Below are positions 31,720-35,833 of a stretch of 64,000 nucleotides of DNA, piece after piece (position 1 is the stretch's first letter; each line of letters begins with the position of its first letter). The notes under the pieces are model-generated. The model had not been told where the DNA came from. It saw only the letters and a list, made by a program, of their open reading frames with translations, and did no database searches. The stretch is from Phycisphaerae bacterium (GTDB lineage Bacteria; Planctomycetota; Phycisphaerae; UBA1845; Fen-1342): the NCBI GenBank assembly GCA_017999985.1, contig JAGNKU010000001.1, positions 487,276 to 551,275 of the forward strand, given 5' to 3'. The translations under genes were made by a program, and so were the position numbers.

Positions 31720-32469
31720 GTGGCTGACACTGCACCGGGTTTCCTGGACCGCCATCATTTCCTGCTGCGACGCCTGCACTCGTTGTCGGGCATCATTCCG
31801 GTCGGCGCGTTCCTGATCAATCACCTGCTGGCGAACTCGACGGCCTTCCTCGGACAGAAGCACTTCGACCACCACATCGGGATCATCCACGATCTCCCCT
31901 GGCTGGTCGTGATCGAGTTCGTCTTCATCTTCATCCCGATCGCATTCCACGCGATTTACGGCATCCTGATCGCGTGGCAGGGCAAGCTCAACCAGAATCA
32001 GTACCCCTACATGGACAACTGGCGCTACACCCTCCAACGCATCACCGCCTACATCACGATCGTCTTCATCCTCGTCCACCTGGCCCACTTCCGCTTCGCT
32101 TACCTCTTCGGCGGCGAGGAGTACGGCAGTGCCTACCCGGCGTTCTTCGCGTTTACCAAAGCCGGCTTCCAGAATATGTGGCTGCCGTTGTGGACCTGGA
32201 TTGTCCTGTACGCCATCGGCCTGACCGCGGCGGTGTACCACTTCTGCAACGGCATCGTGACCTTCTGCATCACCTGGGGCATCACGGTCGGCGTCACAGC
32301 TCGCCGCAAGATGTCCATGGCCGCCGGCGGTCTCGGTGCGATCCTGATGATCTGGGGCGTGCTGTCGCTGGTCGCGTTCGCGCAAACTCCGAACAAGGAC
32401 TCCGGTCCGCATTCGACCGCGACGTTGCGGGTGGTGGACAGCCAAGCAGCGCTGGTGTCCCGTCCCTGA
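31720..32469 (+). CDS. sdhC: Succinate dehydrogenase cytochrome b558 subunit
   Basis: Membrane anchor of complex II, 249 residues with five helices as in the B. subtilis and Wolinella type, and candidate haem-ligating His in RRLHSLSGIIP, LINHLL, IAFHAIYG, LVHLAHFRF and AVYHFCNG. It passes electrons from succinate to the quinone pool. The GTG start at 31720 has GAGAGG upstream. A hydrophilic tail of about 25 residues follows the last helix. sdhA starts 33 bases downstream. The single-anchor form with two haems fits the SdhA/SdhB types next to it. Confidence 0.92.
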   Translation: MADTAPGFLDRHHFLLRRLHSLSGIIPVGAFLINHLLANSTAFLGQKHFDHHIGIIHDLPWLVVIEFVFIFIPIAFHAIYGILIAWQGKLNQNQYPYMDNWRYTLQRITAYITIVFILVHLAHFRFAYLFGGEEYGSAYPAFFAFTKAGFQNMWLPLWTWIVLYAIGLTAAVYHFCNGIVTFCITWGITVGVTARRKMSMAAGGLGAILMIWGVLSLVAFAQTPNKDSGPHSTATLRVVDSQAALVSRP

Positions 32470-32502: not shown

Positions 32503-34401
32503 ATGGCCAAACAACGCGTTATCGTCGTCGGCGGCGGCCTCGGGGGCCTCTGGGCCACCTTGCGGCTCGCCGAAGCCGGCGTGCCCGTCGACCTGTTCTC
32601 GCTCTTCCCCGTCAAGCGCTCGCACTCGTGCTGCGCCCAGGGCGGCATCAACGCCGTGCTCGACGTGAAGGGCCAGCATGATTCCATCTGGCAGCACATC
32701 GTCGACACGATCAAGGGCGGCGACTACCTCGCCGACCAACCTCCGATCAAGACCATGTGCGAAGACGCCCCCGGCCTCATCCGCACGTACGATCGCATGG
32801 GCGTTACCTTCAGCCGTACGCCCGAAGGCGTGATGGATCAGCGCCTCTTCGGCGGCGTCAAGAATCGCCGGACGGCGTTCGCCGGCGCGACCACCGGCCA
32901 GCAACTGCTCTACACCTCGGATGAGCAGGTCCGGGCGAAGGAAGCCCTCGGCCTCGTCCAGAAGTACGAGAATTGGGAATTTCTCTCCATCGTTCGCGAC
33001 AGCGACGGCGTCTGCCGCGGCATCGTCGCCCTCGACCTCAACACCATGAAGGTCCAGGCCTTCCGCGCCGACGCCGTCATTCTCGCGACCGGCGGCCTCG
33101 GCCTCATCTTCGGTCGGTCCACGATGTCCACCAACTCGACCGGCTGCGCCGCCTCGCGCGTCTATCAGCAGGGCGCGAAGTTCGCCAACGGCGAGTTCGT
33201 CCAGTTCCACCCCACCGCCATGAAGGGCCACGACAAGCTCCGCCTGATGAGCGAGGCCTGCCGCGGCGAGGGCGGCCGCATGTGGGTGCCGAAGAAAGCC
33301 GGCGACCCGCGCCGCCCGCAGGACATCCCCGAAGCGGAGCGTTTCTACTTCCTCGAAGAGTGGTACCCGACCTACGGCAACACCGTCCCGCGCGACGTCG
33401 CCAGCCGGGCGATCTATCGCCTGACGCGGCACATGGGGCTCGGCGTGGTCGGGTCGTCCGGTGCGCCGGCAGACATCGTTTACCTCGACCTCTCGCACAA
33501 GCCGCGCGAGTTTCTCGAGACCCGCCTCGGCGGCATCCTGGAGATGTACCAGACGTTCAGCGGCGAAGACCCCTTCACCGGCCCGATGAAGGTCTTCCCC
33601 GCCGTCCACTACAGCATGGGTGGCCTCTACGTCACCTTCGCCAAGGACGAGAAGACCGGCGGCATGCAACAGGTCAGCCCGAAGAACCACGCGACCACCA
33701 TCCCCGGCCTCTACGCCGCTGGTGAATGCGACTTCGCGTATCACGGCGCCAACCGCCTCGGCGCGAACTCGCTGCTCAGCGCGTCGTTCAGCGGCCGGGT
33801 CGCCGGCGACGCGGCGGCGGCCTACGTCAAAGGCCTGAAGAAAGGCCGCGCCGACGCCCCCGACGCCGTGTTCGAAGCGGAGCGCAAGCGCCAGGACGAG
33901 ATCAACACGGCCATCATGGGCCGCACGACCGGCGAGAATGCCTTCGCGCTGCACCACGAATTGGGCGAGCTGATGCAGGAGCACGTGTTCGTGGAGCGCG
34001 AGAACGCCGGCTTGGACAAGGCGCTCGCGGGCCTGGCGAAGCTGAAGGAGCGGTCGCAGCGCATCGCCCTCGACGACAGGAGCCCGTGGGCGAACCAGTC
34101 CCTATCCTGGGCCCGCCAGGTGCAGGATATGATCGTACTGGCCGAGGTCATCGCGAAGGGTGCCCGGCTGCGGGATGAATGCCGTGGTTCGCACTACAAG
34201 GCCGAGTTCGAGCTGAAGGTGCCCGAAGGCAAGTTCGCGGGCGACCCCGAGTACGAGGCGTACAAGCAGCGCTGGAAGGCCAGCAACGAGAAGTGGATGA
34301 AGCACACGGTGGCCAGCCACACGCCCGACGGCCCGCAGATCGAGTACATCCCGATCGACGCCAGCGTGATGGCCCCCGAGACGCCGAGAGACTACAGATA
34401 A
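32503..34401 (+). CDS. sdhA: Succinate dehydrogenase flavoprotein subunit
   Basis: Catalytic subunit, 632 residues, oxidises succinate to fumarate with covalently bound FAD. The N-terminal FAD site is VVGGGLGGLWA, the FAD-linking segment is KRSHSCCAQGGINAV (His next to Ser), and the active-site loops are QFHPTAM, EACRGEGG and GLYAAGECDFAYHGANRLGANS. The length and the VHYSMGGLYV block fit the non-proteobacterial three-subunit type. The stop codon is followed at once by a CACAGAG-type repeat and an extra gene before sdhB. Confidence 0.96.
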   Translation: MAKQRVIVVGGGLGGLWATLRLAEAGVPVDLFSLFPVKRSHSCCAQGGINAVLDVKGQHDSIWQHIVDTIKGGDYLADQPPIKTMCEDAPGLIRTYDRMGVTFSRTPEGVMDQRLFGGVKNRRTAFAGATTGQQLLYTSDEQVRAKEALGLVQKYENWEFLSIVRDSDGVCRGIVALDLNTMKVQAFRADAVILATGGLGLIFGRSTMSTNSTGCAASRVYQQGAKFANGEFVQFHPTAMKGHDKLRLMSEACRGEGGRMWVPKKAGDPRRPQDIPEAERFYFLEEWYPTYGNTVPRDVASRAIYRLTRHMGLGVVGSSGAPADIVYLDLSHKPREFLETRLGGILEMYQTFSGEDPFTGPMKVFPAVHYSMGGLYVTFAKDEKTGGMQQVSPKNHATTIPGLYAAGECDFAYHGANRLGANSLLSASFSGRVAGDAAAAYVKGLKKGRADAPDAVFEAERKRQDEINTAIMGRTTGENAFALHHELGELMQEHVFVERENAGLDKALAGLAKLKERSQRIALDDRSPWANQSLSWARQVQDMIVLAEVIAKGARLRDECRGSHYKAEFELKVPEGKFAGDPEYEAYKQRWKASNEKWMKHTVASHTPDGPQIEYIPIDASVMAPETPRDYR

Positions 34402-34440
34402 CCACAGAGACGCAGAGGACACAGAGAAACACAGAGAAAG
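34402..34440. repeat. Left inverted repeat of the sdh cassette (CACAGAG type)
   Basis: Begins on the base after the sdhA stop: CCACAGAGACGCAGAGGACA and so on, a run of CACAGAG/GCAGAG units. Its first 25 bases match the inverted copy at 35018-35042 at 22 of 25 positions. Confidence 0.85.
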
Positions 34441-34534
34441 AACTGTGATGGGGCCGCCAGCAACGGTTCTGGCTGTACTTTGCGAATGAGAGGTACAACC
34501 AGCCCCTGGCAATGGCAGTAGAGTACAACAAGAC

Positions 34535-35002
34535 GTGTGGAACGGTGTACGACTTCGAAGGAGCTTCGTCCTGCCTGTGGCGCTGACCATAGTCACCGCT
34601 GGGTGCGTTTGCATTGATGGGGTCGCATCTCTTGAAGTGACCGGCAAGATCGTTGATCGCAACCTACAGCCGCTCACCGACACGCCGGTCGAAATCCGCC
34701 TGCTTGATGGCGGAGATCCGGTGCGCCCGTCACCGATTCAAACGACAAGCACCGCTCAGGGCGACATCGAGGCCGCATCAGGCTATTCGCTCTACGGCGG
34801 AACAGTGCCGTTCTGCTTCGTTTGGTTGCCGGACCGTCCACCGCCTCCGCCCGCGTTCGATGCGATCGAGGTCAGTGCGTCGATCCCGGGCGGGTGCCGG
34901 CAGATATCGGTCCCGCTGAAGCCGGGCATGCTGCTTCGCACCGACAACGGCGGACGGCTCGAGCTGGGTGTGGTGACGCTGGAGGACTCTGCCAGGGAAT
35001 AG
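34535..35002 (+). CDS. Small predicted lipoprotein with carboxypeptidase-regulatory-like domain, inside the sdh operon
   Basis: A 155-residue protein of unknown role between sdhA and sdhB. A GTG start gives RRSFVLPVALTIVTAGC, a lipoprotein signal peptide with lipobox VTAGC. The mature part (VTGKIVDRNLQPLTDTPVEI) resembles the carboxypeptidase-regulatory-like/CNA-B beta-sandwich found in many secreted proteins. Its codon use is less GC-biased than that of sdhA and sdhB. It is flanked by inverted repeats (34402 and 35010), so it looks like an inserted cassette. No role in complex II is expected. The start has no strong ribosome site. Confidence 0.6.
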   Translation: MWNGVRLRRSFVLPVALTIVTAGCVCIDGVASLEVTGKIVDRNLQPLTDTPVEIRLLDGGDPVRPSPIQTTSTAQGDIEAASGYSLYGGTVPFCFVWLPDRPPPPPAFDAIEVSASIPGGCRQISVPLKPGMLLRTDNGGRLELGVVTLEDSARE

Positions 35003-35009
35003 TGAGCCC

Positions 35010-35042
35010 TGTGTAACCTCTGTGTTCTCTGTGCCTCTGTGG
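35010..35042. repeat. Right inverted repeat of the sdh cassette
   Basis: Its reverse complement starts CCACAGAGGCACAGAGAACA, matching the left copy at 34402 in inverted orientation (22 of 25 over the outer part). It ends 38 bases before the sdhB ATG. Confidence 0.85.
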
Positions 35043-35080
35043 TGATCCGTCGCGCAGGCGAGCGCGAGTTTGAGGTTGAT

Positions 35081-35833
35081 ATGACGCCGAATGAAGTCCG
35101 TTTCCAGATCAAGCGCCAGGACGGCCCCCGGTCCACGCCGTACTGGGAGAACTTCAAGATGCCCTACGCGCCGGGCCACAACGTGGTCTCGGCGCTCATG
35201 TACCTCCGCCAGCACCCGCTCACGGTCGACGGCCGGCGGGTCAACCCCGTCGTCTGGGAGTCCAATTGCATGGAGGAGGTGTGCGGCGCGTGCAGCATGC
35301 TGGTCAACGGCGTGCCGCGGCAGGCCTGCGCCGCGCTGATCGACGAGCTGGAGCAGCCGATCCGGCTGGAGCCGCTCACGAAGTTCCCCGTCGTGCGCGA
35401 CCTCCAGGTCGATCGCCAGAAGATGTTCGACGCCCTGCTGAAGGTGAAGGCCTGGGTCCCGGTCGACGGCTCCTGGGACATCCACCGCCACGCGCCGCTC
35501 ATCTCGCCCGGCGAGCAGTCGCTGCGTTACCTCTTCTCGCGCTGCATGACCTGCGGCTGCTGCATGGAGGCCTGCCCCCAGTTCCATGCGGGCTCGGAGT
35601 TCATCGGCCCCGCCCCGCTCGGCCAGGTGCGCCTGCACAACGCGCACCCCACCGGCGGCTACTTCAAGGAGGACCGCCTCCACGCCGTCATGGGCCCCGG
35701 CGGCATCACCGACTGCGGCAACGCCCAGAACTGCGTGAAGGTCTGCCCGAAGGATATCCCGCTCACGGAAGCCATCGGCGAGATTGGCCGGCAGACCACG
35801 ATGCAGTGGCTGCGGGATTTGTTCTTGAAGTAG
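35081..35833 (+). CDS. sdhB: Succinate dehydrogenase iron-sulfur subunit
   Basis: Electron-transfer subunit of complex II, 250 residues. The [2Fe-2S] cluster motif is SNCMEEVCGACSMLVNG plus a later Cys (QACAAL); the second and third clusters are in CMTCGCCMEACPQF and CGNAQNCVKVCPKDIP. The ATG at 35081 has TGAGG upstream; an in-frame codon at 35039 lies within the repeat and is unlikely to be used. Because the repeat-flanked gene separates it from sdhA, its expression depends on readthrough across that cassette or on a new promoter. Confidence 0.95.
   Translation: MTPNEVRFQIKRQDGPRSTPYWENFKMPYAPGHNVVSALMYLRQHPLTVDGRRVNPVVWESNCMEEVCGACSMLVNGVPRQACAALIDELEQPIRLEPLTKFPVVRDLQVDRQKMFDALLKVKAWVPVDGSWDIHRHAPLISPGEQSLRYLFSRCMTCGCCMEACPQFHAGSEFIGPAPLGQVRLHNAHPTGGYFKEDRLHAVMGPGGITDCGNAQNCVKVCPKDIPLTEAIGEIGRQTTMQWLRDLFLK

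Follow-up and report, generated by a model that had tools for sequence, protein, structure and literature searches.

How does a small gene enclosed by inverted repeats come to lie between two genes of succinate dehydrogenase, and what are the repeats that enclose it? We addressed these questions for the sdhA-sdhB junction in a window of 64,000 nucleotides, the whole stretch of DNA analysed here (G000:C1:487276-551275), which belongs to an assembly of 5.23 Mb with 98.7% completeness.

A repeat-bounded insert between sdhA and sdhB

The first-pass annotation of the window had described a small lipoprotein-like gene between sdhA and sdhB, and an open reading frame (ORF) was found at this place between the two intact genes (Table 1). 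The inverted CACAGAG repeats said to bound the gene were recovered as well. In inverted orientation the two 25-mers are identical at 22 of 25 positions, compared with 16/25 for the next best inverted match of the arm in the 64-kb window, and the ungapped repeat extends to arms of 33 nt with 85% complementarity. As had been noted, CCACAGAG starts at 34402, directly after the sdhA stop codon TAA (34399-34401), and the right repeat ends at 35042, leaving 38 bases to the sdhB ATG at 35081. The extended left repeat reaches 34394 and thus overlaps the last sdhA codons, so that the sdhA stop codon lies inside it (ACAGATAACC; right counterpart ACGGATCACC). The left repeat agrees with the family consensus GATCACCACAGAGRCACAGAGRACACAGAG, to which we return below, at 28/30 positions and the right repeat at 30/30; the latter also fits the 26-nt pattern of the family without a mismatch.

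The insert is indeed AT-richer than its surroundings (GC 0.56-0.63 vs 0.64-0.70 in sdhA and sdhB) and is present as a single copy in the genome. In agreement with the earlier reading, Pfam and NCBIfam profile searches revealed no transposase family within it. Neither a sigma-70 promoter nor a gene or remnant of the GxxExxY family described below was found inside the cassette, the best GxxExxY profile score having an E-value of about 1-2. Some terminator-like hits occur in the cassette.

Table 1 Features of the sdhA-sdhB locus (positions within the window).
Feature	Position	Strand	Description
sdhC	31720-32469	same direction as sdhA and sdhB	
sdhA	32503-34401	+	Succinate dehydrogenase flavoprotein; PF00890 1.6e-78, PF02910 2.2e-29; intact, left neighbour
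Left inverted repeat	34394-34426	+	ACAGATAACCACAGAGACGCAGAGGACACAGAG; array of CACAGAG-type units
Whole cassette	34402-35042		641 bp; outer ends CC...GG of the inverted CACAGAG arrays
Cargo ORF	34535-35002	+	155 aa, GTG start; lipoprotein-like, predicted mostly beta, without family
Right inverted repeat	35018-35050	-	GGATCACCACAGAGGCACAGAGAACACAGAG on the minus strand
sdhB	35081-35833	+	Iron-sulphur subunit; PF13085 2.3e-29; intact, right neighbour

The cargo ORF begins some 109 bp after the left arm and ends 15 bp short of the right one. Its N-terminus has an Arg-rich n-region, a hydrophobic stretch and a TAGC lipobox-like motif, and it is this signal motif that suggests a lipoprotein. The ORF looks coding but foreign, because its in-frame codon score (-0.06 bits/codon) is higher than that of any of 500 shuffles (maximum -0.28), with all other frames scoring lower, while its GC3 of 0.71 is atypical for the host (0.87-0.96). 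Family searches returned only Big_1 in Pfam (E 0.11) and no match in NCBIfam or PADLOC. A structure model built from the single sequence is all-beta, but its confidence is low (pLDDT 40), making it unusable.

The junction in related genomes

Comparison of the junction with 26 relatives from the same family and order, in which both genes are adjacent, supports the view of an insert. The gap between sdhA and sdhB has a median of 64 bp, with 5-182 bp in 22/26 relatives and 346-1365 bp in the other four, and the CACAGAG repeat is absent from all 26 junctions. The closest relatives share 81-84% identity in sdhB. In close relatives without the insert, sdhA also ends with Tyr-Arg-stop, in two of them with the exact letters TACAGATAA; therefore, the sdhA stop codon need not come from the insert. 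Vertical inheritance of the gene, which the first-pass annotation had named as evidence against a cassette, was not found: the cargo ORF had no match in 60 relatives (family and order), 392 genomes of the phylum gave weak partial matches only (E >= 2e-4), and no convincing homologue was present in 84,980 species genomes and viral contigs.

Two of the four relatives with larger gaps, G005 and G016, carry homologous ORFs of ~330 aa between sdhA and sdhB (L016:2350-3354 and L021:414-1406), whose C-termini weakly resemble PD-(D/E)XK enzymes (PDDEXK_9) and which have no inverted repeats. Considering the larger gaps and this unrelated gene, the sdhA-sdhB junction is a recurrent insertion point. At the junction of a further genome, G007 (L020:1015-1490), 14-bp tandem arrays (AGGGTTCAGGGTTT ... 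CTGGAACCTGGAA) form roughly inverted halves.

A widespread family of paired repeats

The repeats of the cassette are members of a large family and are not peculiar to it. Allowing up to three mismatches, the 26-nt pattern occurs eight times in the window genome and the reversed pattern not at all. The genome has four outward-facing pairs (+ then -) spanning at most 641 bp each, where about 0.003 would be expected by chance, namely the sdh cassette and units of 275 bp (C1:446340-446614), 148 bp and ~160 bp. Solo arms are located at C1:789520 and C14:9534. The 148-bp unit is flanked by two genes which, judged from their sequence, are a putative thiolase gene and a putative 3-hydroxyacyl-CoA dehydrogenase-like gene.

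Across the phylum, 57/294 genomes contain the repeat in up to ~198 copies, with the reversed-sequence control at 0 throughout. Overall, the repeat spans more than ten phyla, a spread in which single assemblies may carry binning errors. Among the matches listed are Planctomycetota, Verrucomicrobia, Acidobacteria, Chloroflexi, Cyanobacteria, Bacteroidetes, Proteobacteria, deltaproteobacterial lineages, a myxobacterium, Hydrogenedentes, one Fibrobacteres assembly and one Diapherotrites archaeal assembly. The repeat is carried by seven plasmid records and was not found in phage records. An exact scan of named genomes yielded at least 119 loci; among the matches listed, neighbouring arms are ordered +- in 69 cases, -+ in 16, ++ in 8 and -- in 8. 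According to a logo of 98 repeat ends (WTTMA, then CCACAGAGRCACAGAGRACACAGAG), the arm is a direct, non-palindromic array of CACAGAG units. The 129 distinct pairs show a bimodal size distribution and are either short (<200 bp, 105/129) or 400-900 bp long. Short pairs have inverted ends, many dispersed copies and unrelated flanks, and the repeats gave no match in Rfam.

Individual lineages show additional features. In G064 (L133-L152), units of ~190 bp are built around the CACAGAG pair and have a second inverted repeat farther out (AGAGCYTGTTTAAAAAGT / ACTTTTTAAACAGGCTCT), and other repeat subfamilies of this genome have other conserved flanks. G104 (L301-L329) holds about 196 copies, and in those read a mini-hairpin TTCGCCTTCGGCGAA, followed by GAGGATGTCA, lies outside most arms. 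In L146 and L224, some copies are tandemly expanded (CTCTGTG x many), as if the units were prone to slippage. A predicted viral contig (IMGVR_UViG_3300008516_000240; L176, L179) contains three copies of a repeat pair of 77-78 bp. The same repeat pair with ~85% identical flanks was seen in L226, a 'Klebsiella pneumoniae' MAG, and L286, a 'Proteobacteria bacterium' MAG; therefore, the Klebsiella label is probably wrong.

Association with GxxExxY nuclease genes

The first-pass annotation had raised the question of whether pairs of the repeat flank other genes. The repeat proved to be common but paired (four pairs here and further pairs elsewhere) around genes, mostly of the GxxExxY family (PF13366 PDDEXK_3, TIGR04256). 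This sharing of the cassette repeat with GxxExxY units of many phyla is the new part of our analysis. A profile scan showed that GxxExxY genes are often located inside CACAGAG inverted arms: 15/30 loci were bracketed in the first set. In the taxonomic order to which the window belongs the figure is 12/30, no locus of this set being wrongly oriented and the elements measuring 440-720 bp. Overall, 37/100 loci are bracketed in the correct orientation vs 1 in the wrong one (one locus counted twice), and 63/100 have no detectable arms. Conversely, 15/17 of the pairs of at least 400 bp hold GxxExxY, a fraction that would be smaller in an unbiased sample because some loci of the 129-pair set were fetched by GxxExxY; for loci fetched by repeat or place it is 6/8. 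Besides GxxExxY, the window ORF and one DUF2971 ORF, the 129 pairs (up to 3 kb) contain no long ORF.

The two long pairs lacking GxxExxY are the sdh cassette and L043 (G151), an 887-bp unit with 25-nt arms situated just after a stop codon. Its 267-aa ORF matches DUF2971 (2.9e-7) and the PADLOC defence candidate PDC-S31 (3e-42). No further long cargo other than GxxExxY was seen in G104 and the matches listed (at least 119 named loci). Such cargo is rare, since it was seen only in these two cases.

The window genome keeps only a relic of GxxExxY: the 275-bp unit encodes GLRTGLLLNFYVAKRRDGIVQMVL-stop, a GxxExxY C-terminus (E 0.002). Relics were also found within shorter pairs at L157, L159, L160, L189 and L199, and internal deletion is seen for the relic copies L006, L159, L160, L189 and L199 only. 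The parent of the short copies was presumably a transposon.

At the genome level, GxxExxY is present in 33/38 repeat-positive vs 16/39 repeat-negative genomes (Fisher 4e-5), a comparison of hand-picked and hence non-random genomes; the repeat-rich genomes G350, G111, G099 and G305 have no GxxExxY match. Lineages are mixed in the GxxExxY tree, and the repeat label is mildly clustered (23 changes vs 29.5 shuffled). Apart from one locus fetched twice, no recent GxxExxY duplicates at >=75% were found within one genome. This diversity of copies is unlike an actively multiplying transposon. The protein has the invariant residues D63, E73-x-K75 and Q87-xxx-Y91 and a confident structure model (pLDDT 94.6). 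Among solved folds it comes closest to Cas4 SSO0001, LHK-Exo and lambda exonuclease, in each case as a weak match, and it is taken here as a Cas4/lambda-exonuclease-like PD-(D/E)XK nuclease.

We also compared the place where G277 has a GxxExxY unit (L162:5742-6314) with the congener G213 (L343). The two species have the same flanks there, and the comparison puts the right boundary no more than about 2 nt away from the GTGG end. In G213 the insert is a PIN-domain gene with an AF2212-like gene; it was therefore rejected as an empty site, as a swapped insert is present instead. In the open-access literature, we found no description of GxxExxY or the CACAGAG repeat as a mobile element.

Origin of the cassette and alternative explanations

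The best explanation, to which we assign a probability of roughly 70%, is that the cassette belongs, as a non-autonomous member with cargo, to a widespread, GxxExxY-associated family of units bounded by inverted repeats. The case for its membership in a family of bounded units is strong. The proposal, already made on first reading, that the cassette is non-autonomous and carries a passenger is supported: the gene is not shared vertically, and the repeat, common as it is, occurs in pairs around genes. Units of this family end in inverted repeats of consensus WTTMACCACAGAGRCACAGAGRACACAGAG, and their commonest coding form is the arrangement repeat - GxxExxY nuclease - inverted repeat over 420-740 bp. 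Internal deletion would give rise to at least some of the abundant empty pairs of 50-200 bp, and rarely the interior holds another gene, such as the lipoprotein-like gene here or the DUF2971 defence candidate elsewhere. An enzyme acting in trans might recognise the two end repeats together and insert the segment between them at an intergenic position, here right after the sdhA stop, leaving the reading frames unbroken. The sdh cassette probably moved as a single piece.

Alternatively, a short empty CACAGAG pair may have arrived first after sdhA, and the lipoprotein gene may have been inserted or recombined between its arms later. The large majority of pairs are short and empty (105/129), relatives carry unrelated inserts at this junction, and cargo other than GxxExxY is rare. 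We nevertheless regard this nested history as improbable, considering that the cargo ORF fills the interior as GxxExxY does, that 641 bp falls within the size range of GxxExxY units, and that L043 represents a second unrelated gene filling the interior likewise. It is scarcely credible that two independent single-repeat insertions flank a horizontally acquired gene by coincidence: solo arms do exist in the window genome, but against this stand the chance expectation of 0.003 pairs, the likeness of the arms (22/25) with a correct orientation as in most pairs, and the junction of the relatives, which has neither gene nor repeat. The repeats could also be fixed structural or regulatory DNA, such as RNA hairpins or recombination sites, instead of ends of mobile units. 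Their scattered taxonomic presence (0 to ~198 copies), the dispersed copies with unrelated flanks, the association with a nuclease gene and the absence of an Rfam match make this very unlikely, even though strong hairpins are conceivable for short pairs and two orthologous pairs of differing length are inherited in place (L226/L286, L224/L259).

For a cargo-carrying member of the GxxExxY-associated family, the identity of the moving enzyme is a separate issue. The GxxExxY PD-(D/E)XK nuclease may itself move the units, nicking DNA or resecting it so that copying can proceed by recombination; this idea is speculative, and it is disfavoured because near-identical GxxExxY copies within genomes are absent. 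Equally tentative is a classical transposase as the mover, either an IS200/IS605-type tyrosine enzyme as in TIRtrons or a DDE enzyme in trans, with GxxExxY as cargo. Tyrosine transposases that are flanked by TIRs and have genomic TIR families are known (PMC3733652), G104 copies bear their mini-hairpin outside the arms, and GxxExxY copies do not multiply within genomes. The outer inverted repeat of G064 copies (AGAGCYTGTTTAAA) points in the same direction, so that more than one mover is possible. On the other hand, a transposase is difficult to reconcile with the 129 pairs, whose only long ORFs are GxxExxY, DUF2971 and the window ORF, and with non-palindromic arms devoid of GTAG/CGTC tags. More doubtful is the broader notion that CACAGAG/GxxExxY units constitute an undescribed class of mobile elements in bacteria and at least one archaeal assembly, whose own enzyme would be a small nuclease of the Cas4/lambda-exonuclease PD-(D/E)XK type in place of the DDE, HUH, serine or tyrosine kinds. 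Its gene would be exchangeable for other cargo, the sdh cassette being one such exchange.

No role is known for the GxxExxY family, common and conserved as it is, and its link to the repeat offers a concrete and testable one, either as part of a mobile element or as what drives it. The link also accounts for at least some of a large class of dispersed repeats, as deletion derivatives. Moreover, such units may allow foreign genes, defence candidates among them, to enter operons that stay intact.

Comparison with known mobile elements

Mobile insertion cassettes (MICs) have inverted-repeat ends and a passenger gene, lack a transposase and are thought to move in trans; in the IS231-derived MICs of Bacillus cereus, for instance, the ends match a known DDE insertion sequence. 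The sdh cassette resembles them in its inverted repeats at both ends (33-nt arms, 85%), its single 155-aa passenger ORF and the absence of a transposase, but its ends match units whose only gene is a GxxExxY nuclease. The short pairs, in turn, resemble bacterial MITEs such as Nezha, Bcr1 and RUP (PMC3733652): at 50-200 bp, they are non-coding, dispersed and intergenic with inverted ends, and some are internal-deletion derivatives of a coding parent. In contrast to MITEs, their apparent parent gene is a PD-(D/E)XK nuclease, and the CACAGAG repeat is conserved across many phyla, with outermost sequences that vary from lineage to lineage.

REP/REPtron systems and TIRtrons, the latter described as TIR-flanked tyrosine transposases with genomic TIR families (PMC3733652), are similar in that small dispersed repeats are tied to a single gene family, whose members have these sequences as inverted flanks. 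A REP element was rejected, as the CACAGAG arm carries no GTAG/CGTC tag and is not self-palindromic, and a TIRtron was rejected, as a tyrosine (HUH) transposase is absent from the 129 pairs up to 3 kb. The sdh cassette differs from the GxxExxY elements themselves in having no GxxExxY gene or remnant, but it shares their CACAGAG consensus ends and, with 641 bp, their size (440-720 bp).
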